Source: Escallonia rubra
Taxonomy: Eukaryota > Streptophyta > Magnoliopsida > Escalloniales > Escalloniaceae
Assembly: GCA_033065855.1 (NCBI GenBank)
Contig: JAVXUO010002878.1
Location: 1-64,000 of the forward strand
Length of the DNA: 64,000 bases
Direction of reading: 5' to 3'
The notes under the pieces were generated by a model. That model saw only the letters and a program-made list of their open reading frames with translations, was not told where the DNA came from and did not search any database. How positions within the stretch are numbered: the first letter of the stretch is position 1; the number at the start of each line of letters is the position of its first letter. The position numbers were made by a program, and so were the translations under genes. Shown piece after piece: positions 1-43,889 of this stretch.

Positions 1-405
1 AAGGCGCGGCGACGAACGTCGCGGGAGAGAGTTGGTGCCGGGGCACGTATCATGGAGGTGGCGCAAGGGCGCGGCGACGAACGTCGCGGAGCAATACTTG
101 GTGCCGTGGGCACGTATCATGAGGATGGCGCAAGGGCGCGGCGACGAACGTCGCGGAGCAATATTTGGTGCCGGGGCACGTATCATGAGAATAGCGTAAG
201 GGCGCGGCGACGAACGTCGCGGAGCAATATTTGGTGCCGGGGCACGTATCATGAGAATGGCGCAAGGGCGCGGCGACGAACGTCGCGGAGCAATATTTGG
301 TGCCGGGGCACGTATCATGAGAATGGCGCAAGGGCGCGGCGACGAACGTCGCGGAGCAATATTTGGTGCCGGGGCACGTATCATGAGAATGGCGCAAGGG
401 CGCGC
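1..405. repeat. 66-bp tandem array A (left LTR copy)
   Basis: About six head-to-tail copies of a GC-rich unit containing GGCGACGAACGTCGC. Unit starts at 61, 128, 194, 260, 326 and 392 give steps of 67, 66, 66, 66 and 66 bp. Because 66 is a multiple of three, several frames stay open by chance; these ORFs are not genes. The same array is at 15,030-15,396 in the other LTR. Confidence 0.95.
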
Positions 406-849
406 GTCGGGTGTCCCGAAGACAGGATGTGAGCTAAGTGTACCTGTCATAACAAGATAATGAATGCAACATGTAGTAGTGACAAAGTTGGGAGTGATGG
501 TATGCGGTCGTCGGCGACGGGTCATTCGGCTGTAACGCGCGACTTTGGGTGACGGGCATCGCGGGAGCGGCGTGCGGTCCCGGGCGACGGACGTCGCGAG
601 GTTGATGGACGACGGACGTCGCGAAGTTGATGGACGACGGACGTCGGGAGGTTGATGTACGAACGTCCGTAAGGTGATGCACGACGAACGTCCGTAAACA
701 TCGCGGAGGTGCAAAGACTCGAGAAAACAAGTGCGCGCAGGAGGGGAGGCCATAGGCCAAACATTGGGGGGAAGGCCAAGGCCACCACCCCTGGGGAGGC
801 TGAGGCCGACCCTAGGGGTGGCCAAGGCAAAAGGCCAACTCCCATGAAG

Positions 850-1500
850 GGAGGCCAAGGCCATTCCCCCATTCGATGAACTTCGGGCGCGCCGACGGTA
901 GGTGTTTTGATAAGCAAAGGCAAATCCGGAAGTTGCGTTACGACGAGCGTGTCGATGCGAATTGTATCCATATGACGAACGAGGTGTCAAAGTCACGCGC
1001 AAAGCGTACGAAGCGAAAAGAGTGCGAAAAAGGGGTTTGCGCGGAGGGGTGAACCACCGGGGGAAAATGGCCGAGGCCAACCCCTCCTGGAGGCCGAGGC
1101 CGACCCCTAGGCCTGGGGAAGGCCGAGGCTGACCCCTGGGGTTGGCCAAGGCCAAATGGCCAACTTCCATTTTCGGAGCCCAAGGCAATTTCTCCTTTTG
1201 CGAACTTCGGGCGCACCGTCGGTAGGTGTTTTGATAAGCAATGACGAATCCGAAAGTTGTGTTGCGACGAGCATGCTACCAAGAATCGTACCCACATGAT
1301 GAACAAGGTGCCAGAGTCATGTACGAAACGTACGAAGCGAAAAAAGTACGAAAAGGACTTTGCGTAAAAAGTGAAGAACCGAGGGGGGAAGGCCAAGGCC
1401 AAACCCCCATGGGAGGCCGAGGCCGACCCCATGGCCTTGGGTGAGGCCGAGGCCGACCCCATGGTCTTGGGTGAGGCCGAGGCCGACCCCATGGGGTTGG
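850..1500. repeat. 324-bp tandem repeat inside LTR U3
   Basis: The motif CTTCGGGCGC followed by GTCGGTAGGTGTTTTGATAA-like sequence occurs at 881 and again at 1205, 324 bp apart. Each copy continues through a similar block ending in GGCC-rich sequence. A third, more diverged copy seems to follow from about 1530. The same arrangement is in the right LTR (about 15,960 and 16,290). Confidence 0.8.
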
Positions 1501-1795
1501 CCAAGGCCTTTGCCCGTTGACCCTGTTGCTCCGGTTGCGCCGTCGGTCGACATTTTTGGTAAGGTGTTTGGGTGATCTTGGTGTGACGATTGCGCTAGCG
1601 TGAGTGACGTCAATGCAAAATAAAAATGTCTAAGTCGCGCACGAAGCACGTGAAGCGAGAAAAACACGTGTCTTGGGTGCGCGGGCACTGACCGGTTTGA
1701 TGCGCTGGAAAATTGACCGTTGACAATGTTGACGTGTTCGCGCGTAGTGGGACCCCTAGCGGGCCATTGGGTCTGACCAAGATGGGTTGGGAACA

Positions 1796-1807
1796 TAAGC
1801 CCCCTGC
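1796..1807 (-). other. Probable polypurine tract next to the 3' LTR
   Basis: Read on the minus strand, the bases just before the LTR start TGTTCCC are GCAGGGGGCTTA. A G-rich tract here is expected as primer for plus-strand DNA synthesis. It is short and interrupted, so the call rests mainly on position. Confidence 0.5.
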
Positions 1808-3016
1808 GTGCGGTGTGCGCGGAGGGGCAACCCGAGCGGGCGCCGCACGCATAAGCATTAATCGATGAAAAAAAAGTGTCGGGCTCGAATTTGGAGGAAC
1901 GGGCGCTATAGTAACGTGAAACGCGGGGGAGCGTAAAATCCCTTGGAATATGCAAAGTTTCGATTTTTTTTTTTGCGAAAATAAAATGGTAACGATCTCA
2001 GCGTAACGGTGAACTCGAGAAAAAAAGAAATAGCGAAAACAAAATGTAACACGCGTGTCCGTTGGCGTTAGCGTGAAAGAAAGAAATAGCGCGACAAAAA
2101 AATGTGCGGAAGATGGGTTGCGCGAAGAATTTTGATAGCGACGTTAGGTTATGAATGTGAAATAATAATGTTGTTTTGCTAAAATAACAACGCGTTGGAA
2201 AAAGTCGGCGTTAAGAAGTGGAACGCTAAAAGAGTTGTTGGGGATTTTGGGGGGAAACTTGGAATTTGAATTGATGTGATGGATTTGGGGGGAAAATTAG
2301 GTGGGAAGTCTTAACTTTCAAGACTTGGGAGAGAGAGAGAAAGAAAGACTTAGCCAAACTAAAGAGAGAAAGGAGAGAAAGAAAGGAGAGGAAGAAGAAG
2401 AAGAAGAAGAGGAGTTGGATCTTGAAGACCCATGAGAGTGAGAACATCACAAGAAGCCAAGAGGATGCAACAAGGTAAGAGAGGAGGGGCAAGTGGGGGA
2501 AGGGTTGGCCATGGGCCAACCGCGACGGCGGCCGAGGCACACCGCCGGGCCGAGGCCGAGTGTGGGGGAAGGAGAGGGGGCGTGGCTATGGGGTGAAGGG
2601 AGGGGGGGAGGGGGGAGGGCGACAAGGGCCGGCCGACCAAGGCCGCGAGGCCGAGGCCGACCAAGGCCGCTTGGCCGAGGCCGGCGCGGGCGCGGCGCGG
2701 GCGGTGGAGGGGGGAGAGGAAGGGGAGGGGAAGAGGGAAGGGAGAGGGGAAGGGGAGAGGGAAGGGGAGGGAGAGGGAGAAGGGGAGAGGGGAAGGGGAG
2801 AGGGGAGAGGGAGAGGAGAGGAAGGGGAGGGGGAAGGAAGAGGGGAAGGGAGAGGGAGGAAGGAGGAGGGGGAAGGAAGGAAGGAAGGAGGGGGAAGGGG
2901 AAGGAGAAAGAGGGAAGAAGGAAGGAAGAGGGAAGAGGGAGAGAGGAAGGGAGGCCGAGGCCGAGGCCGAGGCCGAGGCTGTCGGGGCCGAGGCCGAGGC
3001 CGACCGGAGGCACGGC
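1808..3016. repeat. Non-coding leader of the antisense gene with purine-rich and GGCCGA low-complexity tracts
   Basis: Between the 3' LTR and the PMD gene. From about 2,320 to 2,960 the plus strand is almost entirely A/G (GGGAAGGA, GAGAGG, AAGAAG runs). It is followed by GGCCGA repeats at about 2,953-3,003. Long ORFs on both strands here reflect composition only. The segment lies immediately upstream of the PMD gene and would hold its promoter, but no TATA box is evident. Confidence 0.7.
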
Positions 3017-6000
3017 GTGCGCGGAGATGTTTCTCACGGCGCAAAGGGGAATGTTGGTGGATTGCCGAAAAAGACACGGAAGAAGCAAAGTGTGCGATGG
3101 CGCGGCGGAGCTAGCGGGCGATCAACGTTAGTGCCGGGCGACATGTTTGATGATGACGACGTCGCGCTGGTTGAAGAAGCGGGGGTGCCATTGAGCTTCA
3201 TTGGTAGGGCGAGGAGCTTTGATGCAACGCCAAGCCACAGCAATATTTTGTTGACGGCGAAGGGGGCGGTGCCCGGATGCCCACCCAAGGAGCTTTGGAG
3301 GGAGCTTGGCCAGCGAGTGGGTGCGGATGTGTTTTTGGGTCCTTTCGGTGCGTCGTCGATGGCGGAGAGTCCGTTGGTTCCTTCACCGTATGTTCGTGCG
3401 CCGAGCGGGGGGGTCGCTCCGGTGATGTCGCCGAGGTACATGCCGGGTTTGTTGGTGGAACGACTAGATGTGCCGTGGTCGCCGGTGATGTTCAAGGGCC
3501 ATAATACCATGCCGGTGGGGTGGAATTTTTGGTGCATGTATATGTTGGAGCAGTCGGGTTGGGGGGAGAGATTGGAGGCGTTGGGATTGGTGTCTGCGAT
3601 AGAGGCGACGTTCAAGGTGATTGATCCGGTGAGGGACTTTAAGGGCTTGGCGTTGTTGCTTTCGAGATGGAGCTCGCAGACGCATACGTTCATCACGGCG
3701 TTTGGGGAGATTGGGCCAACGCTTCTCGACGTGATGATGTTGACGGGGTTGCCCATGCACGGTACGGAGAATGCTTGTGAGCTGGAGTTGACGGCGGCGG
3801 AACGGTTGACGGTAAAGGAACTGCAGGGGTTTGCCTCGTTGATAAGGAGCAATCGCAAGGGTACGTACAGCGGGTGGCTCAAATACTTCTATGGTACGGC
3901 GACCGCGTTACCCGGGCAGAAGTCTGCGTCGGTGAGCAATTTTCGCGCGGGTCCTTGCTATAAGGACAAGAGATACGAGCTAGCGGGGTTTCTTGTCATG
4001 TTCTTGTCGAGGTACGTGCTTATAATGTCTTCCCTTTAGTATTGTTGCATGTTGTACTTCCATTGTTCTTGTATGCGTAGAATGCTGAATTTTATACTTA
4101 GAGAAAAAAACGTGTCGGAAAGATAGTGTAGTCATATTGCCATGCAACAGAGTTTACGTTCAGAATAGGGCGAGAAGGTTATGATAGACATTGTATGCTC
4201 TTATGCTTGTAGGTTTGTATTTGAGGGGACGCCGGAGGATGGCGTGTCCCCGAGGGTATTCAAGTTGGCTGTACGTATGGCTGGTGGGGGGCGCGTCGGG
4301 CTGGCCCCCATTTACTTAGGCACGCAGTACTCTCGTCTAGATCAGTTTGCCAATGATGTACAGAGGTCGTATGGACGCTATCAGGTGACGACGTACGTAG
4401 ACTGGATGTTCTTGCAGCGGTATCTATTCGAGGTCTACATGGATTATCGGCCTCGTGATCTTCCCTTAGTACATCCGTCGCCGCGGATGGTTACGGTGAC
4501 TCGGCCGGGCAAGTCACGTGAGGTTTCGGCTTGGTACGCAGGTGGCCGAGTATATGCCTGGGCGGGCGGGAAGAGGCCCGGGCGTGATTTGGCAGACATT
4601 TTTGACGATCGAGATGAGTGCGTTCCCCGTGCGTATACCGGCATGCATTATTCGTACGGTACTCCTCCATGGATGGATCTGCAGGACACTATGGTGCGAC
4701 TACACGGTCGAGATGAGCTGACGGACACGGCGGTGGCCTTACTAGTGGCGTACTTTCCAGGGTGGCTACCCGTATTGACTGATGATGGCGGGAAGCCGGC
4801 TGAGAACAGATATTACGTGGCGAGATACAGCCCCGATCGATTGTCCTCGAGCTTTGGTTATGATTTAGAGCCCCCATGTGGCTATACGAGGGCGTGGGAG
4901 GTGAGGAAGGCTTTTGGGTATACGATCTTAAAGTGGGCGCGGAAGTGGCCGGTACCGACAGAGGAGTGGAGGAGGCCCGGGACGCTATCGACGAGAGTAG
5001 CGACGGTTGAGTATGCGCGATGGTGGGATCGGGTACTGGCGACATGGTCGGAGTGGTTGTCGCAGGAGCCATCCGACAGGCAGCAGGTCGATGTCTTTGC
5101 GGGGGACAGAGGACTGGGACTGGTTACAGCGCAGGTCGCGAGGCAGAACGGCATGTCGGTACTACTTACAGGCGTATCAGATGAACCGGTGCCAGCACGC
5201 GCGCCACGGGCGCCGGCAGCAGCAGGTGGTCCGAGGGTGCCGGGTGCTGGCAAGGGTCCCATTTCGTCATTGAGAGTAGGTATGATGGTGGGTGCACAGC
5301 GGACAGGCGCAGGTCCTTCGACGGGTGGTGGACGTAGGCCGAAGAGGTCGCGAGAGGTGCTGGAGGAGTGTGACTCCGAGGTTAGTGTAATGCTTTGCTT
5401 TCGTTGTACAGTTGCCAATTATCATGTTAAGTGTTCTCTAATGCTCGGTTCTCTCTTTTTTTTTTACAGGAAGTTCGATGATGATGGTGGTGCCATTGAC
5501 GTGGAGTCAGACGATACCACAGAGTATGCCGAGGCCGTTACTGATGATACTGAGGGGATGGATCTTGAGGCAGCTGAGGAGGATGAGGAGGCAGATGTAG
5601 ATGCGGCCGATGAGGTCGAGGAGATGGAGGCCGAGCCGGCCTATGAGGGGGAGCCGATGGATAGTGAGGCCTTCGAGGAGGCCGCGGCGGTAGAGCAGGC
5701 AGCGGCCTACATTGTGGAGCCAGTCAGTCACCTGGAGCAGACAGCAGCATATGTTGTGGAGCCGGTCGTGCCAGTTGGTCATTCGAGCCCGTCACCTGTC
5801 TTGGTCGAGGAGGTATTCGGTGGCCCGATGGGTCACACGTTTGAGGGTGATGATTGGTGGGCACATGCGGGGGCACATGCCGGGTTGCCGACCACACATG
5901 TGGTGGTTAGAGATTCGTTGCCACGACGCGGTGTACCTGATTCGTCTGTTGTGGAGCCGATAGCGGATACATTGTCGGAGTCAGCCGTGGATGCGGGTGA

Positions 6001-6667
6001 TGCTCTGTTGGCGATGCATGCTGCCACCGTTGGCATGAGATCAGTGGGTGGTAGGGCGACAGGGGTTGATGCTGCTAGTGGCGGGTCTTCAGTCGGGCAG
6101 GCAGACGGTATGTCCTGGGAGGGCCTCGGGTTGTCTGATGCGGTGGTCCAGCGGTTGGAGATGATTAGGGCGAGACAACCCCAGACATTTGAGGGCTCTA
6201 TTACCATGCGGGGCACGGCATTGCTCAAGGCGATGTTTGCCGCACTTGTGGACTGGCTGGCGACACTTAGTACGGTGTCGACCTCAACTTGGAGTTCAGA
6301 GATGAGGTCAGAGTTTATGTCAGAGCTCGAGCCGTTCGTAGCTTTTGGCTTCCAGTTGGAGTGGTTGTCCGACTATGTCCGAGGTAGAGGGCCGAGTGTT
6401 GAGGCCATGGCTGGACTGACTGTGGTAGGAGCGCAGGAGGTGGCGTGTCAGGGCCGTAGGCGTATGCTTGATGCGGCGTTGACAGATGTGACGCGAGAGG
6501 TTTCTGAGATGCGGGCCCGGCTTAGCGAGGCGGAGGCTCGGCAGGCAGAGATAGAGAGACAGGGGGCCGAGTTGGAGCAGAGATGGTCCGACTTACAGGT
6601 GCAGCGACAGACTCTGGAGTCGTATACTTCTGATACTGTTGGTGCACTGCTTACTTCTTTACGCTAG
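3017..6667 (+). CDS. Antisense accessory gene of the Tat element: plant mobile domain (PMD) protein
   Basis: Exon 1 is 3017-4011 and exon 2 starts at 4213. The 201-bp intron has donor AG|GTACGT and acceptor TTGTAG, and joins ...FLSR to FVFEG... exactly as PMD proteins read. If nothing else is removed, the product is 1,149 aa. The PMD (PF10536, 'aminotransferase-like') covers roughly residues 150-520, with recognisable blocks RWSSQTHTF, GEIGPTLLDV and LTGLPMHG. It is followed by a basic patch (RRPKRSR), a long Asp/Glu-rich stretch with repeated YxVEPV motifs, and a C-terminal coiled coil rich in E, R and Q. PMD proteins occur in host nuclear proteins such as MAIN and MAIL1 and inside transposons; the biochemical activity is unknown. 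The gene lies opposite to gag-pol, between integrase and 3' LTR, and converges with pol. The start may instead be the Met at 3143. A possible second intron is at 5381-5469. Confidence 0.85.
5381..5469 (+). other. Intron-like segment in the PMD gene
   Basis: GAG|GTTAGT at the left and an eleven-T tract followed by ACAG|GAAG at the right look like good splice sites. The segment is AT-rich compared with the GC-rich exons on both sides. Its length is 89 nt, so removal would shift the frame straight into a TGA, whereas retention keeps the frame open into the acidic region. Either one base was lost in this copy or the segment is retained. Confidence 0.6.
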
Positions 6668-7113
6668 ATGTGATGTACTTTTCATTTTGCTAGTAGTCAT
6701 TGGTCCGTAGCGACCTACAAACCTGTGACCTGTATGCATTTTGTTGATACTGATATAGCAGTTGTATGGTTATTTTGTACCTGTGTTTGTTGTGAGGTGA
6801 TGCTTAGCTTTTGATGTGCTCGTATATCTTGCATGTGGTGTCCTCCCGTTGTGGTTCCCCCTTCCCCGCCCATAGCAAGCGACTTAGTGAACGATGTGTA
6901 AATGAAAGAGTGCGTTACATACAGTAGTTGAGGCGAGTGAATGATCTTTGCATTGATAGTATTTGGGCCAAAATGCCATTACATGAAGAAAGCAAGAACT
7001 TGTAATAAACAACAAAAGTTACAAGTCATGAACATGTGTGCATATACAAAAAAATGTTGTGTAAATGTTCTAAGCTTTGGGCGGGTAGGGCTGGGGGAAC
7101 ACTCCGCTGTTGG
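6668..7113. other. Convergent spacer between PMD gene and pol
   Basis: A 446-bp stretch between the stop of the PMD gene (plus strand) and the stop of pol (minus strand). I see no conserved coding sequence. Both 3' ends must be processed here or transcripts will overlap. Confidence 0.6.
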
Positions 7114-8910
7114 TCATGCATAAAACTTCTTCAAATAGCGACCGTTGATAGGTGCCGTGATTTGTCCGTCTTCCGTGTTGAGCAGGAGGTAGGAGCCGTT
7201 GTCTCTGGCTTCATGCACTTGAAGTGGTCCTTCCCAATTCGGTGTGAACTTGGGGGCTGACATGTTGGCGCGTACATGTTTGGCGGCTTGAAGAACAAGG
7301 TCGCCCTCGACGAATGTTCGTTGCTTCACAGTCTTTCCATATGCCTTGGTGAGTTGTTCGTGGTATTTCTTCATACGGCGCAAGGCATTGGCTCTCCTTT
7401 CATCAAGTCCTTCAAGGGCGGTCATTCTGGTTTCTTCCTCTCCAAGCCCACTGCTTAGGGAGAGTCTGGCTGATGCGACTGTAATCTCGGCTGGTACGAC
7501 ACACTCGTCCCCGTAGACAAGGGAAAAGGGTGTGGTCTTTGTTGCTGTATGCTTGGAGGTTCTGTAGGCCCAAAGTGCGAGGCTTAACTTCTCGGACCAT
7601 GAACCACTTGCATCATGGACCATTCGTGATAATACCCGCAGTAGAGTTTTGTTAGAAGCTTCGGCTTGACCATTCCCTTGTGGGTAGTAAGGAGTGGATG
7701 TAGCGTGGTTGATGTTGTATCCTTCCATGAAAGCTCGGACATCCCTGTTGATGAATGGCGTGCCGTTGTCGGATATGATACACCGGGGGATACCAAAGCG
7801 ACAGACGATGTGGTCGCGCAAGAAGTTGGCGATGGCGCCTCCCGTGGCTCGCCGTAGAGGTATGGCTTCGACCCACTTTGTGAAACGTTCCGTTGCAACC
7901 ATGATCCAAGTGTGACCCCGTGATGTTGGGTGGATGGGGCCTATGAGGTCGAGAGCCCAGGAGTGAAATGGCCAAGGGGCTAAGATCATGCGGAGATCGG
8001 ACGCCGGCGTGTGCATTCTGTCGGCGTGTCTCTGACAGGGTTGGCAGTGTCGGACATGAGAGATCGCGTCAGATTCCATAGTTGGCCAGTAGTATCCCAT
8101 CCTTAGCAACTCTGCATACAACTTCTGAGAGCCTTGATGCTCACCACAATCACCGTTGTGCACTTCGTTAATCACCTCGACTGTCTGGGCACCCTGCAGG
8201 CATCGCAGGGTGCGTCCCGAAAATCCCTTGCGGAACAACTCTCCTTCCGTCACAAAATACTTGACCGACTTGCGCTTGATAGATCGTGCCGAGCTGCGGT
8301 CAGGCGGTAGAACCCCGTGGGATAAGTACTGGATGAAAGGCTGGCGCCAGTCACCTTCGACGTTAATGACAAGAGCTTCAGTATTGTCCGGTGCGTACGA
8401 ACACTCGGGGCAGTCCCCTTGTATGTCTGAGGCATCCTTGGCCATGGATGGCCAATAGAGGCCCATACGCTGGAGGCGACGGTATAAAGGGGGACCGTCG
8501 AGGCCACAACACTTCTGATGGCCGAACTGTAATTTGTGCTTTGCTTCTTCCGGTGCCAAGCACCTGGCCAGAGTGCCTCCGGGGCATCGCCTGTACAAGA
8601 CGTCTCCCAACATCAAGAAATCTGCAAGGGTAGATGCGGTAGCAAGAGATGGCGCCTTAAGTTGGTCGACAATTGGTTGCCTCCAATCGTCTGTAGTAAT
8701 GTCCTTCGGGACTAGGTTCAATGATGTGCATGGTTCCGTCCTCTTGATGATGGTTAGCATTCGCTGCTCACCATCAACCTCCATCTTTGACGTGATCGTG
8801 GCCAAGCTGTCTGCATGTCGGTTGTGGCACCTGTTATGATGTTCGTACTGGATATGGCCAAATCTTCCTTCCAAGTATTGCACCAAGGCACGATAAGGCG
8901 CCAAGGCTGG
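7114..8910 (-). pseudogene. Integrase region of the Tat element pol
   Basis: Minus-strand frame continuous with the upstream RT frame but separated by a TAG at 8911-8913. The first part is the end of the second RNase H and a linker. Then come a zinc-binding H-H-C-C module (GEHQGSQKL, later CQPCQRH) and the catalytic core, with the DDE residues in DLIGP, SDNGT and QAEASN. A C-terminal region follows, ending KKFYA. The integrase itself has no internal stop. The protein would insert element cDNA into host DNA. The region is called a pseudogene only because the polyprotein frame is interrupted upstream. Confidence 0.9.
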
Positions 8911-10830
8911 CTAATTGATTGCGAACTCCTCGTCGGCCTGCTTCATGATCAAGTTCGAGTCCCCTTTTACACACAATGCCTTAGCCCCCATACTGGCAGC
9001 CAACATGAGGCCAATGACAAGTGCCTCATACTCAGCTTCATTGTTAGACACCGGGAAAGCAAGCTTGAAGGATAGGGATGTGGTAACGCCCTCTGAATTT
9101 CGAAGGACAATGTCGGCACCCCCTTGCCGGAGGGGAGCTCCATGGGGTCCTTTGCTAGTGGCTGAGCCGTCGAACTCAAGCGTCCACAATTCACCAATGT
9201 CAGAGGTCAGGGCCGTTTCTTCCCCAGGCAATTGATCTGAAGTCGGTTCATATTGTTGGCGTGGGAAGAAGGCCAAGAGGTCCGCTAGTGCTTGACTCCG
9301 TAAAGCTGTAGGATTCTTGATGGACAGGCCGAACTCGGCCAATAACAGCAACCAACGAGTAAGCCGGCCAGACAGGGCAAGGCGCGTGAGCATGTATTGT
9401 AATGGATCGGCCTTGGTGACAAGTGTGATCTGGTGTGACAAGAAGTAGTGTCTGAATTTCTGCGAGGCGTAGACCAAGGCTAAGCAGTGTTTCTCGAGCT
9501 CAGAGTAATTGGCTTCGGGGCCCCTGATTGATCGGCTGAGATAATAAACCGGGCGCTCCACCCCATCTACCTCTTGGGCAAGCAATGCCCCTATGGACCT
9601 GGGCGTGGAGGTCAAATAAAGTAAGAGTGGTATACCTCGTTGTGGCACGACCATGGTCTGCGGCGTCATGAGAACCGCCTTGATCTGTTCGAATGCTTGC
9701 TGTTGGGGCGCACGCCAACTCCACGGTGCGCTCTTACGCGTCAAGTGCTGGAAGGGCGTGATGAGTTCGGCCAAGGCAGGGATGAATCGGCGGAGGTAAG
9801 AGATCTTGCCAAGGAAGCTCTTCAATTGTTTGGTGCTCTTAGGAGGGGGCAACTCCTGGAGAGAACCAGACTTAGAAGGGTCAATGTCAATGCCCTGTCG
9901 CCTGACCAAAAAGCCGAGGAATTTGCCGGAGGAGACTCCAAAGGCACATTTCAACAAATTCATCTGCATGTTGTATTGTCGACAACGATCGAAGACTGCC
10001 CGAAGGTCCGTGAGATGTTCACTTTCCTTTTTAGATTTGATGATAAGATCGTCGACGTAGTCCTCCACTGTGCGGTGTATCATGTCATGGAAGATCGCTG
10101 TCATTGCTCTTTGATATGTTGCACCCGCGTTCTTAAGGCCGAAGGGCATGACTTTCCAACAGAAGTTACCCATAGGGGTACGGAAGGCTGTCTTGGCACA
10201 ATCGTCGGGGTTCATCCGGATTTGGTTGTAGCCCGCGAAACCATCCATGAAAGATAAGGTTTCGTGTCTGGCAGCTGCCTCGGTGAGCATGTCGATGTTG
10301 GGCAGCGGGAACTCGTCTTTGGGGCATGCCTTGTTCAGATCCCGAAAATCAATACAAATGCGGACTTGGCCGTTCTTCTTTTGCACAGGAACAACATTAG
10401 CCAACCAGATAGGATGAGTGATAGGTTCAATGAAACCAGCTTGTAAAAGTCGTTCAATTTCTTGCTTGATCTTCAGTTCGAGCTCGGGGCGGAAGGTTCA
10501 CGGATGCTGTCGAACAGGGCTGAACCCGTTAGCAATGTTGAGATGGTGCGTCACCAAGGCAGGATCCAATCCAGGCATTTCGTTGTAACTCCATGCCAAT
10601 ACGTCATGATATTCATGGAGAAGAGTAATCAGTCCTTCTCTTCGCCCAGGGGCGAGTTTCGTGCCGATGTAGGTCAGTCGAGGTTCCTCGTCCGGGTCAT
10701 CCAGGTTAATTTCTTCAAGATCTTCGACCTGCGGTCGAGGGTCATCTTCATAGCAGGGCGGGGCAGCACCTGGTGTGAGCTCAGGGTCCGGCAAGCAATG
10801 CTCGGCCGTACAACACCACTCTGTTTCCAT
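8911..10830 (-). pseudogene. Reverse transcriptase, RNase H and second (archaeal-type) RNase H of the Tat element
   Basis: Same frame as gag and integrase. The RT shows DFRDLNKACPKD, the MPFGLKNAGATYQR block and the catalytic YVDD. It is followed by the usual Ty3 RNase H (about 9,300-9,700) and then a second RNase H beginning at LEFDGSATS with NNEAEYEAL and GDSNLI (about 8,911-9,200). Two RNases H in a row is the Tat hallmark. A TGA at 10498-10500 falls just before FRPELE, where these proteins normally carry a charged residue, and a TAG at 8911-8913 ends the second RNase H early. Both could come from a single C-to-T change (CGA, CAG). Confidence 0.92.
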
Positions 10831-12048
10831 TAGTGGGTCGGGGTCGAGGGGGTTAGGCGGCGAACCCCCCGGAGCCCCCGGACACCGTCATAATTGGTAG
10901 ATCACCCTTCCATCCTTGATGACGCGCTGGAAGGTGATTTAAACCTTGTGTTTCTTGGACTTGGGGGATGAAGGCGAGGGATTGGTCGGGACAGCAGATG
11001 GCGCCGCCACGGTTGATGCCTTGTTCCCATTGCCTCTTTCGGACTTGGCCTTGGACTTGGCGGGCTTGTCCCCACACAGCTCGTCCCAACCTAGTAGTTT
11101 GGTGGAATGAATGTGAGTAGCATTCTCACCATCGGCAGCAATCTCAATGAAGAAGGAGGCCTCGGTGAAGTAAGACTCGGTACATTCAAAAGGGGCCTTG
11201 GTCGCGGGGATGGTCACCGCTACCTCATGTCCCGTAGGACCGGCCACCAGTTTCACACACTGGTGGTACGTCGAGGGGACAGCCTTGTTGGTATGAATCC
11301 AGGGTCGCCCAAGCAGGAGGTGGAAGGAAGATTCACTGTCTATCACGTGAAAAGTAGTGTCACGACGGACAGTTCCGATCATGAGGTCGACAGTGATGTG
11401 GCCAAGGGTGGACTGGTGGCCTTGCCCGAAGCCAGTAATTTTGACGGGGTCACGGATGATCCTCCTTGGTGGTATACCGGCCTGCTGCAAAGTGGTTAAG
11501 GGGATGATGTTGATCGAGGCGCCGCCGTCTACCAAGGCGCGACGAAAGCCGATGCCGTTAACAGTGCACTCAAGGTACAACGGCCGGTTATGATGCTCAA
11601 TTAGCGGTGAGTCATCGCCCGAAAAAATGAATGCGGTGGAAGGGATGTGTTTGAGCTCGGCCTGGGCGGCGAAGCATTCGGGCCCGAGGCCGGTAGTGAC
11701 CTCGATCAAACAGTCCAAGAGATATGTCCGCGCTGCGGGTGAAAACCCCATTTCATCAAAGAAGTCTTTGATCTTCGTCATTCGTCCAGCTGAGGATGCT
11801 GGCTGGGGGGTAGAAGGTACACAAGTTGTGACCATAGGGGAGACTTCCGCAGAAGCTTCGGGGACGTGTGGCTCGACGTGGTTGGTAGTAACCATGAGCA
11901 CCTGATGCTCGCGGTTGTTGTTGCCATGATTTGGGTACGGGTTCTTCCGCACGTCGTGATGCTTCCGCAGCTGTAGGTCGCCCGTCGCGACCTTTCTTGC
12001 GAAGATAGCTCGCAATGCATTGCAGTTCTTGAGGGGATGTCCAAGGGC
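10831..12048 (-). pseudogene. Protease region of the Tat element
   Basis: After the zinc-knuckle remainder come about 120 residues of linker, then an aspartic protease domain with active-site motif LVDGGASINI and, further on, LLGRPWIH. A lysine-rich tail ends at a TAA (10939-10941), and a TGA follows at 10888-10890 before the RT linker. The frame is unchanged throughout. The DGGAS form of the catalytic triplet is common in plant retroelement proteases. It would cut the Gag-Pol polyprotein. Confidence 0.85.
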
Positions 12049-13725
12049 CTAGTTGTAAGGGCAGTAGTTGCGCCCGATTCTTTCTTCGTCTGTGATGGGG
12101 ATCCTCACAGGTGGCAACTTGAAGTTGTTATCATTGGCAACCCATTCTGTCAGGAGCCCTTTTACCGTATTCAAATCACACGGAAAGGCGGGCAGAGTCT
12201 CCTGCTGTCGCCGCTTGTCAGAGCGTTGGTCCTCATTCGGGAACTGACGCTTAAAACCCGTGTGATTATTGACGTTGTTGTTGCTGGTGCTGTTGCGCTG
12301 GTTGTTGAATGTGTCAGCTGAGGCCAGCAGCGCATTCTGCGGGCGAGGCCTCCATGGCTTGACATGACCGACCGTCTCGTAAGTACGGCGGGTTGTTTCC
12401 TTGAGGTGTCCCCATGATCTCAACTGTAGATTCTCGATATGCACACGATAGATATCAGTCATGTTTTTTATGCATATGGGAACCAACGTCTCGTCCTTGC
12501 TGAAGTCCGTGCACTCAAGGCATTTGAGATGGAAACGGTGCACGTACTCATTCAAGTCTTCCCCTTGGTTCTGGCGGATGCCAGCAATATCAACAACACT
12601 CACGCGTTCGGCCTCGTAATGGAACTTGTCTAAGAACAATTTGACCATGTCGTTCCATGCGTGGACAGTCCCTGCAGGGATCTGGTGGTACCAAGTGTAG
12701 GCCAAGCCTGTAAGGGACTTGTGGAATTCCCTCAACTTCAAGCTGTCTCCTGGGCCATACTGCTCCAATGAGCCTGCAAATCTTGTCAAATGCTCACGGG
12801 CGTTGCCCTCGCGTCCGTTGAAGAGCACAAAGGCTGGTTGTTTGTACTTCGGGGGATAGGGTATGGTGGCAATATCATTGACATATGGTGCATGGCCTGT
12901 CAGGTGGGCAGAGGGATGAGGCGTAGAGTTTTGTGACAATCGATGGATGAGCGTCTCCAAGTCTGAACGAGTGACATAGTTGGGAGACGGGTCGTCATGA
13001 ACGGTTAAAGGGTGGTGACTGGCTGGGATGCCACGAGCTCCCGAGCCCCCAGAAGGAGCAACTTGGTGGACAGGTGCAACGGAGGGTTGATATATGCCAG
13101 GGGCTTGTGGTGGTAATTAGATATGGGCATGGGTGGTTGGGCGAGACATGTCCACTGCTTGGGCATTGGTTTGATGTTGTTCGGTTGAGTAAGGGTTAGG
13201 TTCCATCTCAATGGAGTCATGGGTCTCAGACGAGCTTCGCGCCGGCATGCGCCGAGGTGCGAAGACAGGGTGGATCTGTTGCAGCACGGGTCCAAGGTCT
13301 GCCTGAGGTCAGCGTGATGGCATCACGGGATGTAGTGCAGCAGCTGCATGAGGCAAAGATGTCGCAAGTCCTACCGCCAATGGTCTGGTTGATTGAGGCG
13401 GCGGTGGTCGCGACACTGGGGCCTGAGCGACGTCAAGAGCCAACTCAGGTCCATAGGGTTGGACTGGTGCAATGGTTTGTTGGGAGGCCATCGCCTGTAT
13501 GGACTTTTGCATTTCCATCACGGCTGTCATAAGAGTGGTTATAGCGGGCGAAAACTGTTGGATGGCCGCGTTGACTGCAACTTGTATGTCAGGTGCGGTA
13601 GTTTGCGGCTGGTCTTGGGGACGCACAGCACTGGTCCCCTCCTGTTCACCTGTGTGGTCCTCTTCTTGAACGGCATGGATAAGGCCCCGGCTGGCAGCCC
13701 TCGTAACTCTTCGTTGTCTAGTCAT
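12049..13725 (-). pseudogene. Gag of the Tat element with in-frame stops
   Basis: The start is the ATG at 13725 (MTRQRRVTR...), 47 nt inside the PBS. The N-terminal part is Gln/Pro-rich. The capsid-like retrotrans_gag domain lies at about 12,300-12,900 with AREHLTRFAGSLEQYG and LTGLAYTWY. The frame reaches a zinc-knuckle-like motif (YCPYN, stop, ALGHPLKNC) in which the stop codon TAG at 12049-12051 occupies a residue inside the finger. Two further in-frame stops are a TGA at 13309-13311 and a TAA at 13117-13119. There are no frameshifts. It would package element RNA if the stops were absent or suppressed. Confidence 0.85.
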
Positions 13726-13771
13726 GGAGATTAAGTGTGGAAGATAGAAAGACTGCAGTACGATGCTCACC

Positions 13772-13789
13772 TCCCCAGCAGAGTCGCCA
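13772..13789 (-). other. Primer binding site, tRNA-Arg type
   Basis: On the minus strand TGGCGACTCTGCTGGGGA starts three bases after the LTR end. Its complement TCCCCAGCAGAGTCGCCA matches the 3' end of plant tRNA-Arg (ACG) as I recall it, with about one mismatch. A tRNA-Arg primer is usual for Tat-lineage elements. Confidence 0.75.
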
Positions 13790-14132
13790 AAATGATGCCA
13801 AGGAAAGTGGGTTGATGCTTACGTGGAGGTGCCACAAAGGCTGCAGTCCGTGTCAGCTTCCAAGTATGCAAAGTGGGAGACAGCAAAGACGGAGTAAGGG
13901 CTGAGGGCAAGGCTTCTCAGACGGGCCGTGAGGAATGACAGTGCTGCGAAGGCAAAGCTAAGACGAAAAGGGCCGGCAGTCGATAGTCCAAGTCAGGGTC
14001 CAATGCTACGGTCCGAAGTTACGGTCCAAAGTTACGTTTCTCTCACTAGAATCCAAGAGCTCCCAAATTCTAGAGTGAGAAAGTGATTTTTGTAAGAAAA
14101 GCCAAAAGTCCCTTTTTGAGTTGTAAAGTTCA

Positions 14133-14142
14133 CTATTTATAG
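14133..14142 (-). promoter_or_regulatory. LTR core promoter TATA box
   Basis: CTATAAATAG on the minus strand, about 340 bp before the LTR end. The same ten bases occur at the matching place in the solo LTR (43567-43576). Confidence 0.8.
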
Positions 14143-14185
14143 GAAACAGGGTGCTTATGTCATAAAGTGCCACATGTCGTCCCCT

Positions 14186-14203
14186 GGGAGTGACACGTCA
14201 CCA
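14186..14203 (-). promoter_or_regulatory. Conserved ACGT-core element upstream of the LTR TATA box
   Basis: Minus strand TGGTGACGTGTCACTCCC, with a near-palindromic TGACGTGTCA core of the kind bound by plant bZIP factors. The identical block lies in the solo LTR at 43506-43523. In both LTRs exactly 43 nt separate it from the TATA box. Confidence 0.7.
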
Positions 14204-14599
14204 GGGGTCCCAAAATACCGGTTCTCCGTTGGACTGCCGGTTCCTAAATTCGCGTTGCTTGCCCCACACAGCGTCGCTCTACCTGTCTGAGAAGACTGAC
14301 CATACCGCGGTAGCATGATCAGAGTAAGCCCGTTGCCCCAGCCACCAATCCAAGCCCTTACTGAATCCCATGAGGCGCGTCAAGAGATGCGCAGAGAACC
14401 TGACAGTGGTGAGGGTTACCCCTGTAGCCAACTGCCAGGCGGACTAGGCGCGGTGCCCTCCGAGGACCTGCTCCCGTCCCGGAGTGACCCGTGGGTCATT
14501 GTCCTGGTGATGTCGACGATCGACAGTAACGTGAGTGGACATAGTCACAGCTTCGTGCTCAGGGTCCGCTGCGAGGGATCCTCGTGCTGGAACCCCCCC

Positions 14600-14972
14600 G
14601 TGATTGAGACGGCGATGGCTATAAGGTTGTGAGCCCATCCCGGTACGAGGGCCGAAGCCTCCCCTGTGATTGAGACGGCGATGGCTATAAGGTTGTGAGC
14701 CCATCCCGGTACGAGGGCCGAAGCCCCCCCTGTGATTGAGACGGCAATGGCTATAAGGTTGTGAGCCCATCCCGGTACGAGGGCCGAAGCCCCCCTGTGA
14801 TTGAGACGGCGATGGCTATAAGGTTGTGAGCCCATCCCGGTACGAGGGCCGAAGCCCCCCCTGTGATTGAGACGGCGATGGCTATAAGGTTGTGAGCCCA
14901 TCCCGGTACGAGGGCCGAAGCCCCCCCTGTGATTGAGACGGCGATGGCTATAAGGTTGTGAGCCCATCCCGG
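14600..14972. repeat. 66-bp tandem array B in LTR U3
   Basis: About 5.7 copies of a unit beginning GTGATTGAGACGGCGATGG. Starts at 14600, 14666, 14732, 14797, 14863 and 14929 give steps of 66, 66, 65, 66 and 66 bp. It has the same period as array A but an unrelated sequence. Confidence 0.95.
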
Positions 14973-15029
14973 AAGCATGTAACATGATTGTGGCGCATGG
15001 GCGTGGTGCCTACAGGTGCCGGGGCACAT

Positions 15030-15396
15030 GTTATGAAAGTGGCGCACGGGTGCGGCGACGAACGTCGCGGAGCAATACTTGGTGCCGGGGGCACGTATCA
15101 TGACGATGGCGCACGGGCGTGACGACGAACGTCGCGGAGCAATACTTGGTACCGTGGGCACGTATCATGACGTTGGCACAAGGGCGCGGCGACGAACGTC
15201 GCAGAGACAATATTTGGTGCCGTGGGCACAGATCATGACGATGGCGCAAGGGCGCGGCGACGAACGTCGCGGAGCAATATTTGGTGCCGGGGCACGTATC
15301 ATGAGAATGGCGCAAGGGCGCGGCGACGAACGTCGCGGAGCAATATTTGGTGCCGTGGGCACGTATCATGAGAATGGCGCAAGGGCGCGCGTCGGG
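15030..15396. repeat. 66-bp tandem array A (right LTR copy)
   Basis: The same unit as 1-405, about five and a half copies, with variation in CGTGGGC versus CGGGGC and in the ATGACGATG/ATGAGAATG segment. Confidence 0.95.
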
Positions 15397-15544
15397 TGTC
15401 TCGAAGACAGGATGTGAGCTAAGTGTACCTGTCATAACAAGATAATGAATGCAACATGTAGTAGTGACAAAGTTGGGAGTGATGGTATGCGGTCGTCGGC
15501 GACGGGTCATTCGGCGGTAGCGCGCGACTTTGGGTGACCGGCGG

Positions 15545-15790
15545 TCACGGACGACATATGTCACGAGGTTGATGCACGACGGACGTCGCGAGGTTGATGC
15601 ACGACGGACGTCGCGAGGTTGATGTACGAACGTCCGTAAGGTGATGCACAACGGACGTCGCGAGGTTGATGTACGAACGTCCGTAAGGTGATGCACGACG
15701 GACATCGCGAGGTTGATGTACGAACGTCCGTAAGGTGATGCACGACGGACGTCGCGAGGTTGATGTACGAACGTCCGTAAACATCGCGGA
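15545..15790. repeat. Compound 23/25-bp tandem array in LTR U3
   Basis: Alternating units containing GACGGACGTCGCGAGGTTGAT and TACGAACGTCCGTAAGGTGAT-type sequence, about 47 bp per pair, repeated about four times. A shorter version is at about 590-690 in the left LTR, so copy number differs between the two LTRs. Confidence 0.85.
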
Positions 15791-16875
15791 GGTGCAAAAA
15801 CTCGAGAAAACAAGTGCGCGCGGGAGGGGAGGCCATAGGTCAACATTGGGGGGAAGGCCAAGGCCACCACCCCTGGGGAGGCCGAGGCCGACCCTAGGGG
15901 GTGGCCAAGGCCAATGGCCAACTCCCATGAAGGGAGGCCAAGGCCACTCTCCCCTTCGGTGAACTTCGGGCGCGCCGACGGTAGGTGTTTTGATAAGCAA
16001 AGGCAAATCCGAAAGTTGCGTTACAACGAGCGTGTTGATGCGAGTCGTATCCATATGATGAACGAGGTGTCAAAGTCACGCGCAAAGCATACGATGCGAA
16101 AAGAGTGCGAAAAAGGGGTTTGCGCGGAGGGGTGAACCACCGGGGGAAAATGGCCGAGGCCAACCCCTCCTGGAGGCCGAGGCCGACCCCCTAGGCCTGG
16201 GGAAGGCCGAGGCCGACCCCCTGGGGTTGGCCAAGGCCAAATGGCCAACTTCCATTTTCGGAGCCCAAGGTAATTTCTCCTTTTACGAACTTCGGGCGCA
16301 CCGTCGGTAGGTGTTTTGATAAGCAATGACGAATCCGAAAGTTGTGTTGCGACGAGCATGCTACCAAGAATCGTACCCACATGATGAACAAGGTGCCAGA
16401 GTTATGTACGAAACGTACGAAGCGAAAAAAGTGCGAAAATGACTTTGCGCGAAGAGTGAAGAACCGGGGGGGAAAGGCCAAGGCCACCATGGGAGGCCGA
16501 GGCCGACCTTATGGGCTTGGGTGAGGCCGAGGCCGACCCCATGGGCTTGGGTGAGGTCGAGGCCGACCCCATGGGGTTGGCCAAGGCCTTTGTCCGTTGA
16601 CCCTGTTGCTCCGGTTGCGCCGTCGGTCGCCAGGTTTGGTAAGGTGTTTGGGTGATCTTGGTGTGACGATTGCGCTAGCGTGAGTGACGTCAATGCGAAA
16701 TAAAAATGTGTAAGTCGCGCACGAAGCACGTGAAGCGAGAAAAACACGTGTCTTGGGTGCGCGGGCACTGACCGGTTTGATGCGCTGGAAAATTGACCGT
16801 TGACAATGTTGACGTGTTCGCGCGTAATGGGACCCCTAGCGGGCCATTGGGTCTGACCAAGATGGGTTGGGAACA

Positions 16876-21932: not shown

Positions 21933-22065
21933 AAAAGGGAAAATGACAAGAAGTTTCCATCATGGTACAATTCGAAGAGCACATTTCGAACAGATCTGAG
22001 ACCTTCAATGCTAATTGCTACATGCTTAAAACCTCAACACGTGAGTAGACAGAGAGAAGAAGAGA

Positions 22066-29170
<7,105 letters not shown>

Positions 29171-41931: not shown

Positions 41932-43889
41932 TGTTCCCAACCTCCTCTGGCCGCACCCCAAGGCCCACTGGGTTCCCATTTTGCACGACACGTCGTCACA
42001 TGCAACAGTCGATATTCAACGCTTTCAACCTGTCAAAGTGTGCACGCGCAAGTCACGTACACTTCCACTTTCGTTACGTGACTTCGTCACTAAGAAACTT
42101 ATCTTCGGGTGACGCCTCATGACGTTTTGACCGTCGCACATCGTACGGTGTCCATCGGAGCACCTTGGCATTTGCCCAAGGAGGTTGGCCTTGGCCTCCC
42201 CCTTGGGGTCGGCCTCGGCCTTGGCCTTCCCCTTGGGGTCGGCCTCGGCCTCCCCTTGAGGAGGCCTTGGCCTTCCCCAAGGGTTGGCCTTTGGCCCCCA
42301 TCCTTCGCACCTTCACTATTACTCTTCAAGGGACCATCCATCGTGTGCGACCCTCGTCGCTCATCGTCCAATCATCATCTCCGCGACCCCCGTCGCCCGG
42401 ACGTCAACTCAGCGAATCCCGTCGCCCGCGCGCAGTCTCCGCGACCTTTGTCGCCCGGGTCCGCGCGACAGCTCTGCGACTTCCGTCGCCGGCACCCGCG
42501 CGCCGTCTTCGTGACCCCCGTTGCCAGCGCCCGCGCACCACACCATACACACTTCATCGCGCCCATGCGCCACAATCAAGTTACATGCCCTCTGGGCACC
42601 ACACTCATTCACCACACCATGTGCACCTTGCCTTGGTCATGGAACATGCTTCAACCCACTATCCAGAGTGTGCAGCATCCTGCGGGGATAGGCGACTTTT
42701 CTGGGACACTATCTCTGCCGGGGAGCTTCAACTCTCCTTCGACCAGGTAGACGGCCCCTCCGGGATGCTCCCTCAGCCCGTCAGGTAGACGACTCATCTT
42801 GGATGCTACCTTGATGCGCTCCGTGTGCTCCGACATAAGGACTCACTAGTGGGGATAAACGACTCTTCTGGGACACTATCTCCATCAGTGAGCTTCAACT
42901 CCCATTCTGCCAGGTAGACGGCTCCTTCGGGATGCTACCTTGAAGTGCTCCGAGTGCTTCAGCACAAGGACTCACCCACGAGGATAGGCGACTCCTCCAG
43001 AACATTATCGCTGCTAGGGAGCTCTAAGTGCTCTGGCATGAAGACTCATCTTCCGTTAGGTAGACGGCTCCTCCGGGATGCTACCTCGGTCCGCCAGGTA
43101 GACGGCTCCTCCGGGATGCTACCTCGGCCTACGGGATATGCGACTCTTCCTGGACACTATCTCCCCCAGGATGCCTGCGCGACTGGCCTACATGTTCTGG
43201 CATTAGGGGCTTGCGTTGGCACCCCTAGGGACTATGACCCCAGGGTTATTTTGAGATGAGAGCAGGTCTTCAGAGGGCATCGTGCCTAGTTCGCCTAGCA
43301 GTTGGGCATCAGGTCTTCCTCGCCGCTACCAGGCCTGTGGGACTCTGCAAGGGCTTGGATTGGAGGCTAGATCAAGGGGTGTTCTCTGACAACACCGACG
43401 TTGTGGGAGCCAGTCTTTCCAGACAAATAAAGTGACGCTGTGCGGGGCAAGCCAGGTGAATATGCGATCCGACAGTTCGTAGAGCACCGACACATGTGGA
43501 CCCCCTGGTGACGTGTCACTCCCGGAATGCGCCACGTGTCGGTTAATGACATCATCATCTCAATCTCTATAAATAGAGGTCTTAAGAATTCATTCAGGAC
43601 ATTTGGACATATTCAGAACATTTTTCACTTTCTCACTTTAGAATTCTAGAGAGAAAAACATATAGGACCTGACTCTGGACCTAAGTATCGAACTGTGACT
43701 GTCGTCGTGTATTCATCTTTCGCCATCGCCCTCGCAGCACTGCCACCCTCAGGCTCTGTCTGGGAAGCCCTTGGTCTCTGCCCTTGCTCCACCATGATGT
43801 GTCCCACATCAATACATTTGGTATCTGAATCGGACTGTATTCCTTGAGACACTTCCACGTTGACAACGAACCCACTTTCCTTGGCATCA
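41932..43889 (+). repeat. Solo LTR related to the Tat element at 1-16,875
   Basis: It starts TGTTCCCAACC and ends CCCACTTTCCTTGGCATCA, the same termini as the large element's LTR. A perfect 5-bp TSD CATTA flanks it (41927-41931 and 43890-43894). It shares the TATA box (43567-43576), the upstream ACGT block at the same spacing and the GGCC-rich U3. It lacks both 66-bp arrays and is 1.1 kb shorter. Its own U3 has repeats built on AGGTAGACGGCTCCTCCGGG (about 42,740-43,140) and a CCGCGACCCCCGTCGCC series (42,350-42,530). The internal region was lost, probably by LTR-LTR recombination. Confidence 0.93.
43506..43576 (+). promoter_or_regulatory. Core promoter of the solo LTR
   Basis: TGGTGACGTGTCACTCCC at 43506-43523, a second ACGT site (CCACGTGTCGG) at about 43532, and CTATAAATAG at 43567-43576. 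Identity and spacing to the other LTR's promoter are kept despite large differences in U3. Confidence 0.75.

Follow-up and report, generated by a model that had tools for sequence, protein, structure and literature searches.

How introns can persist in a gene carried by an element that moves through RNA, and what the product of such a gene might do, are questions raised by a plant mobile domain (PMD) gene of Escallonia rubra. The window analysed here is a stretch of 64,000 nucleotides (contig JAVXUO010002878.1, positions 1 to 64,000), in which the PMD gene is located on the plus strand, antisense to gag-pol of a minus-strand Tat-clade Ty3/gypsy element. From the sequence comparisons described below it appears fairly probable that this is an accessory gene of the element, arranged tail-to-tail with pol, which would be expressed from a three-exon antisense mRNA of its own and would be subject to recombination between PMD and pol.

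Host element and structure of the antisense gene

The following features were defined in the window:

1 to 1795, minus strand: 3' LTR, cut by the left edge of the window; repeat of 13793-16874
3143 to 4011, plus strand: PMD exon 1, from the first in-frame ATG to the donor
4012 to 4212, plus strand: intron 1 (GT-AG, 201 bp), inside the PMD
4213 to 5380, plus strand: PMD exon 2, containing the remaining part of the PMD match and a basic cluster (RRPKR, residue 664)
5381 to 5469, plus strand: intron 2 (GT-AG, 89 bp); frame broken just downstream in the window copy
5470 to 6667, plus strand: PMD exon 3, with acidic region, C-terminal heptad-like stretch and stop at 6665-6667
7004 to 7009, plus strand: AATAAA, poly(A)-like signal ahead of the pol stop codon (pattern match only)
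7114 to 8910, minus strand: integrase (H2C2, rve), Pfam domain match
8911 to 10887, minus strand: reverse transcriptase, RNase H and second RNase H-like domain (RVT_3), interrupted by an in-frame stop
10939 to 12048, minus strand: aspartic protease region, domain match
12049 to 13818, minus strand: gag region, broken; PF03732 in 12049-13116
13772 to 13789, minus strand: putative primer binding site (PBS) adjoining the 5' LTR, read from the sequence
13793 to 16874, minus strand: 5' LTR (TG...CA, 3082 bp), containing 66-bp tandem arrays

On the minus strand, the order is gag, protease, RT-RH-RVT_3 and integrase (INT), with in-frame stops at 12048/12049, 10497/10498 and 8910/8911; for 13309-13818 of the gag region no Pfam match was obtained. 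Since pol ends at 7114 and PMD at 6667, the two genes are arranged tail-to-tail. The PMD gene occupies the plus strand between INT and the 3' LTR, and this anatomy confirms the original prediction of an antisense unit at that place. The LTR pair is 96.3% identical over 1294 aligned columns, the main tandem arrays excluded, and alignment with a related LTR fragment at another place in the window starts at precisely the LTR boundary, 13793. The 66-bp arrays are located at 14593-14972, 15015-15389 and 3-404, and their copy number varies in three other elements compared. At about 42180-43889, short LTR matches in opposite orientation (73-97% identical) possibly represent a related solo LTR.

The element belongs to the Tat clade of Ty3/gypsy by the location of RT and RH ahead of INT and by an extra RNase H, RVT_1, RT_RNaseH and RVT_3 being found in one ORF. 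Next to the LTR lies a PBS-like stretch, whose tRNA type is our assumption; Ogre is marked by a tRNA-Arg PBS. The antisense protein matched PF10536 alone in Pfam, and TRP28 (PF04195), the Retand marker, gave no match. As an ORF in the interval between pol and 3' LTR, on the opposite strand and present in most family copies, the gene falls into the category aORF-3R. RVT_3 (residues 457-524) follows RT_RNaseH (290-389) with INT in the next ORF, and an aRH between RH and INT defines Ogre/Retand, the angiosperm Tat elements, in the relevant section of PMC6317226.

The spliced protein gave one match to PF10536 (92.3 bits, E 4.6e-26, profile 18-193), well above the curated cut-off of 34.9 bits, which bears out the predicted PMD identity. 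When the parts were searched separately, the exon 1 reading (2597-4009) reached 47.5 bits over profile 18-117 and the exon 2-3 reading (4214-6664) 22.3 bits over profile 120-193, the latter under the cut-off. The profile is thus split and its continuity is restored by removing intron 1, which therefore lies inside the PMD and joins it in frame, as had been proposed for 4012-4212. Its junctions are GAG/GTACGT...TTGTAG/GT, and its G+C content is 37% versus 57-59% in the exons. Among 20 frame-preserving open GT-AG pairs, intron 1 ties with one other for the best donor, and its acceptor scores higher than that of its rival.

Two details of the original prediction had to be revised. Position 3017, taken there as the start, is a GTG codon inside the open frame, while the first in-frame ATG, the putative start, is at 3143. 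The length is about 1,076 aa (1,107 aa with intron 2 retained) instead of about 1,150 aa. The single-intron structure stood for intron 1 only, because a second intron is present at 5381-5469. The stretch 5381-5473 has a G+C content of 35.5%, and it was overlooked at first because the window copy stays open when read through it. In the window copy, splicing at the strong acceptor 5469 would lead to a stop at the fourth codon, so that the gene in this copy is probably defective where exons 2 and 3 join, except if intron 2 is retained or an AG four bases downstream of 5469 is used, either of which keeps the frame. The divergence just past the acceptor is apparently common to the window, L052 and L060 among 29 sisters compared, and relatives with the acceptor in frame exist. 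Further downstream the predicted acidic region was found again (34 D/E and no K/R in residues 681-760); in place of the predicted C-terminal coiled coil a heptad-like stretch was seen. No TATA-like motif was detected in 1796-3143 by the pattern used.

The splice motifs support a separate antisense gene with introns that are spliceable from plus-strand RNA alone, in line with the original prediction. The PMD gene would then be read from the strand opposite to pol as a separate three-exon mRNA, and the introns could persist because the reverse-transcribed genomic RNA would carry them backwards, not as introns.

Distribution in the family and possible role of the PMD protein

The genome searched comprises 3222 contigs totalling 566 Mb. 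When 3600-4600 was used as a DNA query, 443 candidates were obtained; the 40 scored, which include the window, are all 97-100% identical and match across intron 1. With the exon 1 protein, 135 of 2420 candidates were scored, in tiers of identity between 100% and 63%. For comparison, ten divergent copies were retrieved; an antisense integrase is located downstream of PMD in nine of them, the exception being L065, in which similarity stops after exon 1. The gene is thus common to the family, and a single chance insertion in this copy was rejected on the basis of the exon 1 protein and DNA searches.

The intron 1 donor AG/GTA is present in all ten divergent copies and the acceptor TAG/GT in all nine reaching exon 2; in these nine, donor and acceptor of intron 2 are conserved as well. 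Intron 2, 89 bp long in the window, ranges from 75 to 119 bp among divergent relatives; in 28 close copies, from which truncated L050 is omitted, it measures about 85-96 bp. PMD types were defined by exon 1 identity to the window, with at least 90% for A, 80-89% for B, and 60-79% for C. In C-type loci, identity to the window is 56-62% in intron 1 (seven loci), 55-63% in intron 2 (the six loci reaching it), 69-71% in exons 1 and 2, and 62-63% in exon 3, which is therefore barely more conserved than the introns in C types.

PMD-bearing gypsy elements, antisense ORFs and the idea of counter-silencing are known in general, whereas the conserved two-intron structure and the exchange of deeply diverged PMD types appear to be new. 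According to the sections of these reports used here, Tat-clade (Ogre/Retand) Ty3/gypsy elements contain PMD extra ORFs (Steinbauerova 2011, as cited in later papers), PMD occurs in 57% of Ogre elements (Neumann 2019, PMC6317226), and PMD was the commonest atypical domain in a survey (PMC9289625). The present element is like the PMD-bearing Ogre/Retand elements in its RT-RH-aRH-INT order, long LTRs and PF10536 extra ORF; introns in extra ORFs and PMD types exchanged between near-identical elements, both seen here, are not mentioned in the sections of the Ogre/Retand accounts used, and neither are the location and strand of PMD within Ogre. Grande gene23 and ORFs of RIRE2 and Retand have been described as accessory ORFs located antisense in the interval from pol to the 3' LTR, and a promoter of its own was reported for the Grande ORF (parts of PMC7264820 and PMC11963269). 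The gene described here resembles them, to the extent that these parts cover them, in position, orientation and presence throughout the family. Retand differs, by the same parts, in that 97% of the clusters have an antisense TRP28 (PF04195) ORF, while here PMD was found and TRP28 was not matched; the word "intron" does not occur in the main text of either paper. The gypsy-borne PMD clades PMD-A1 and PMD-A2 of Ikeda 2017 (PMC5418596, in part) consist of gypsy sequences only and resemble the present gene in that a gypsy element carries the PMD; neither "intron" nor "antisense" occurs in the main text. Introns in antisense PMD genes and PMD exchange were not found in the literature searched, but its thin coverage of subscription journals makes this weak evidence of absence.

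Transposon-borne PMD proteins have relatives in the host, which silence transposons. The protein encoded here is probably nuclear and may act for the element, and its likeliest site of action would be the chromatin or silencing step of the host PMD proteins. A counter-silencing role for element PMD, also suggested in the original prediction, had already been proposed in a 2021 review, and a silencing role is a hypothesis here. The same review, in the part consulted, reports counter-silencing for VANC21 of VANDAL21, an anti-silencing protein, while for element PMD it is a proposal only (PMC8616336). VANDAL21 is a DNA transposon, unlike the gypsy element in the window. VANC21 and the PMD protein are presumably unrelated. 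Instead of silencing, the PMD protein could serve the replication cycle, by nuclear import, in the particle or in integration-site choice, as suggested by the basic cluster at residue 664 and by a report that the antisense Grande protein is nuclear (PMC7264820, in part); we consider this somewhat unlikely, since MAIN and MAIL1, the PMD proteins whose phenotype is known, function in silencing and in maintaining the meristem according to the sections used of PMC5418596, PMC7156037 and PMC8616336.

Recombination between PMD and pol

Comparisons of PMD exon 1 and INT with the window gave discordant results. For L062, dS was 1.10 in PMD exon 1 but 0.000 in INT over 329 codons, with one nonsynonymous change. 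The corresponding values were 1.18 and 0.026 for L061, 1.27 and 0.128 for L066, 0.38 and 0.041 for L068, and 0.37 and 0.073 for L069. No contrast was observed for L070 (0.23 and 0.21), where the INT comparison holds six stop codons. L063 and L067 were not used for INT dS, as unalignable stretches distort the values, and L064 and L065 were dropped. Deeply diverged PMD types are accordingly joined to integrases differing by as little as one base in about 1,000.

The transition is abrupt. Immediately after the PMD stop, identity jumps from some 66% to more than 90%, the step lying between 6640 and 6760. In 40-bp bins, the final 190 bp of PMD show 55-78% identity, and 85-98% is reached at 6680-6760 (C-type copies reaching it and L068). 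Over the intergenic region 6720-7100, the window and the nine fetched copies share 92-98% identity. Within PMD, L068 is a mosaic consisting of a B-type exon 1 (96% like L069) and a C-type exon 3 (97% like L061). Because of the step past the PMD stop and this mosaic, recombination between PMD and pol is considered shown computationally, as far as genomic sequences can reveal it. Pol-like identity is not regained in the LTR parts of three upstream stretches, where 100-bp bins match the window at 60-94%.

When INT was searched with 7150-8150, all 40 copies scored out of 521 candidates, including the window, had at least 99% DNA identity. Linked to these were 22 PMD genes of type A, four of type B and seven of type C, with seven copies left without assigned type. 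Before DNA evidence was added, 17 A, 5 B and 7 C had been counted, with 11 copies unmatched. The gene on C2988 has a broken frame and fell into type B at 85% protein identity, but it is 99% type A by DNA and was counted as A. Among the eleven unmatched INT copies, C538 and C344 are A by DNA and two are A cut by the contig end; the remainder comprises two in which exon 1 would be located off the contig and five outside the check. Type linkage made use of 74 of the 135 exon 1 rows, and the other 61 are, by eye, on no unmatched contig.

The end of the element with the gene would thus move largely as a block, and old PMD types would circulate among element bodies. Recombination would keep pol alike among the elements, the likeliest mechanism being template switching among RNAs packaged together; a single switch between pol and PMD would carry LTR sequence and the PPT end along with PMD. 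Chromosomal gene conversion would give a similar pattern. Exchange inside PMD appears to be rare, L068 being the exception, and the types may be too unlike to pair. Mosaic new copies have been documented for Onsen, which recombines during bursts (Sanchez 2017, PMC5668417), and the present copies are likewise mosaics of family members; in the present family, however, the exchange is deduced from genomic copies, and an accessory gene constitutes a deeply diverged block.

The circulation of PMD types among element bodies might have a selective basis. It is conceivable, though doubtful, that the antisense PMD is a self/non-self or anti-silencing determinant, of which few ancient types would be held under balancing selection and passed on by template switching, possibly with matching LTR repeat targets. 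VANC proteins reportedly target their own elements.

An artefact of the assembly, produced by chimeric joins or homogenized pol sequences, would be a quite improbable source of the discordance. The assembly is fragmented, repeat collapse or polishing among its 3222 contigs could inflate INT identity, and at least one INT copy scores equal to that of the window over 1001 bp though the LTRs differ by 3.7%. However, INT dS is graded from 0.000 to 0.128 at similar dS of C-type PMDs, the step occurs within about 100 bp of the PMD stop and at the same place in several contigs, L068 is a mosaic, and L070 lacks the discordance. Recombination between PMD and pol is preferred.

The INT of C2049 scores the same as that of the window over 1001 bp, yet the LTR pair of the window is 96.3% identical. 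Recombination in the history of the copy, rapid decay of the LTRs or effects of the assembly may account for this conflict with simple dating.

Selection on the PMD gene and other PMDs of the genome

The Ka/Ks analysis called for by the original prediction was carried out on exons 1 and 2. For nine loci compared to the window (L065 dropped), exon 1 had a dN/dS of 0.18-0.27 and exon 2 one of 0.12-0.29, at dS of 0.23-1.9, values of dS above 1 being near saturation. None of the 869 positions of exon 1 is deleted in any of the ten divergent copies, and in-frame insertions are present. By these sequence-based measures purifying selection on exons 1-2 is shown computationally, and coding constraint in these exons together with splice-site conservation fits an expressed gene.

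Selection is visible only at this depth, because in 29 close sister loci (L031, the window itself, omitted) introns are at least as conserved as exons and N/S ratios are nearly equal. Excluding truncated L050, singletons comprised 244 N, 13 nonsense and 145 S changes, and shared variants 109 N, one nonsense and 74 S, corresponding to N/S of 0.56 and 0.47, respectively.

Antisense transcription could also matter by itself, with double-stranded RNA or siRNA controlling the element, a function proposed for antisense ORFs generally (PMC7264820, in part); the coding constraint favours a protein, and such an RNA function appears very unlikely. That the ORF is a decaying, functionless passenger, open by chance after recent insertion, is scarcely credible: zero stops in 1107 codons of the window copy have a neutral probability of 5-13% by simulation, which is not significant alone, and just seven of 30 close copies, window included, are free of stop and frameshift in the part examined (which omits the start of exon 3 and all past 6099), but this explanation was rejected by the dN/dS values in exons 1-2, with the undeleted exon 1 and the conserved splice sites also standing against it. 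With a protein-coding accessory gene as the preferred reading, the family offers a ready natural experiment, combining two exons under selection, conserved junctions and distinct PMD types on near-identical bodies. It could show which PMD types are expressed or escape silencing, and whether the LTR repeats vary with type.

The PF10536 search of the genome reported 216 matches, with 112 of 5238 candidates scored. Four neighbouring uninterrupted full-length PMD frames on contig C922 (L001-L004; 643-689 aa, 53-54% identical to L001) look like host genes. Other listed PF10536 matches are also uninterrupted through the place of intron 1, covering for example profile 12-182. L010-L030 form a second, very uniform PMD set, many members having equal scores. 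No gag-pol resembling that of the window was found in flanks of up to 1.5 kb around L001-L030. The window clade (six rows, 100/100) is apart from both other groups in a tree of 26 PMD fragments whose branches are long and many of whose forks are weak; L069 and L070 entered this tree in shifted frames after about residue 155, so that only their first part is sound.

Two protein database searches, with 7999 candidates scored in each, returned none under 0.001 and 0.01, though plants may be scarce there, and relatives were not found in IMG/VR. A PDB sequence search, performed with the exon 2 piece only, gave two weak unrelated matches, and Rfam and tRNA scans of the window found nothing. At 22045-22908, the window also contains a reading frame with two Stress-antifung (PF01657) stretches, which we take to resemble the ectodomain of a cysteine-rich receptor-like kinase.
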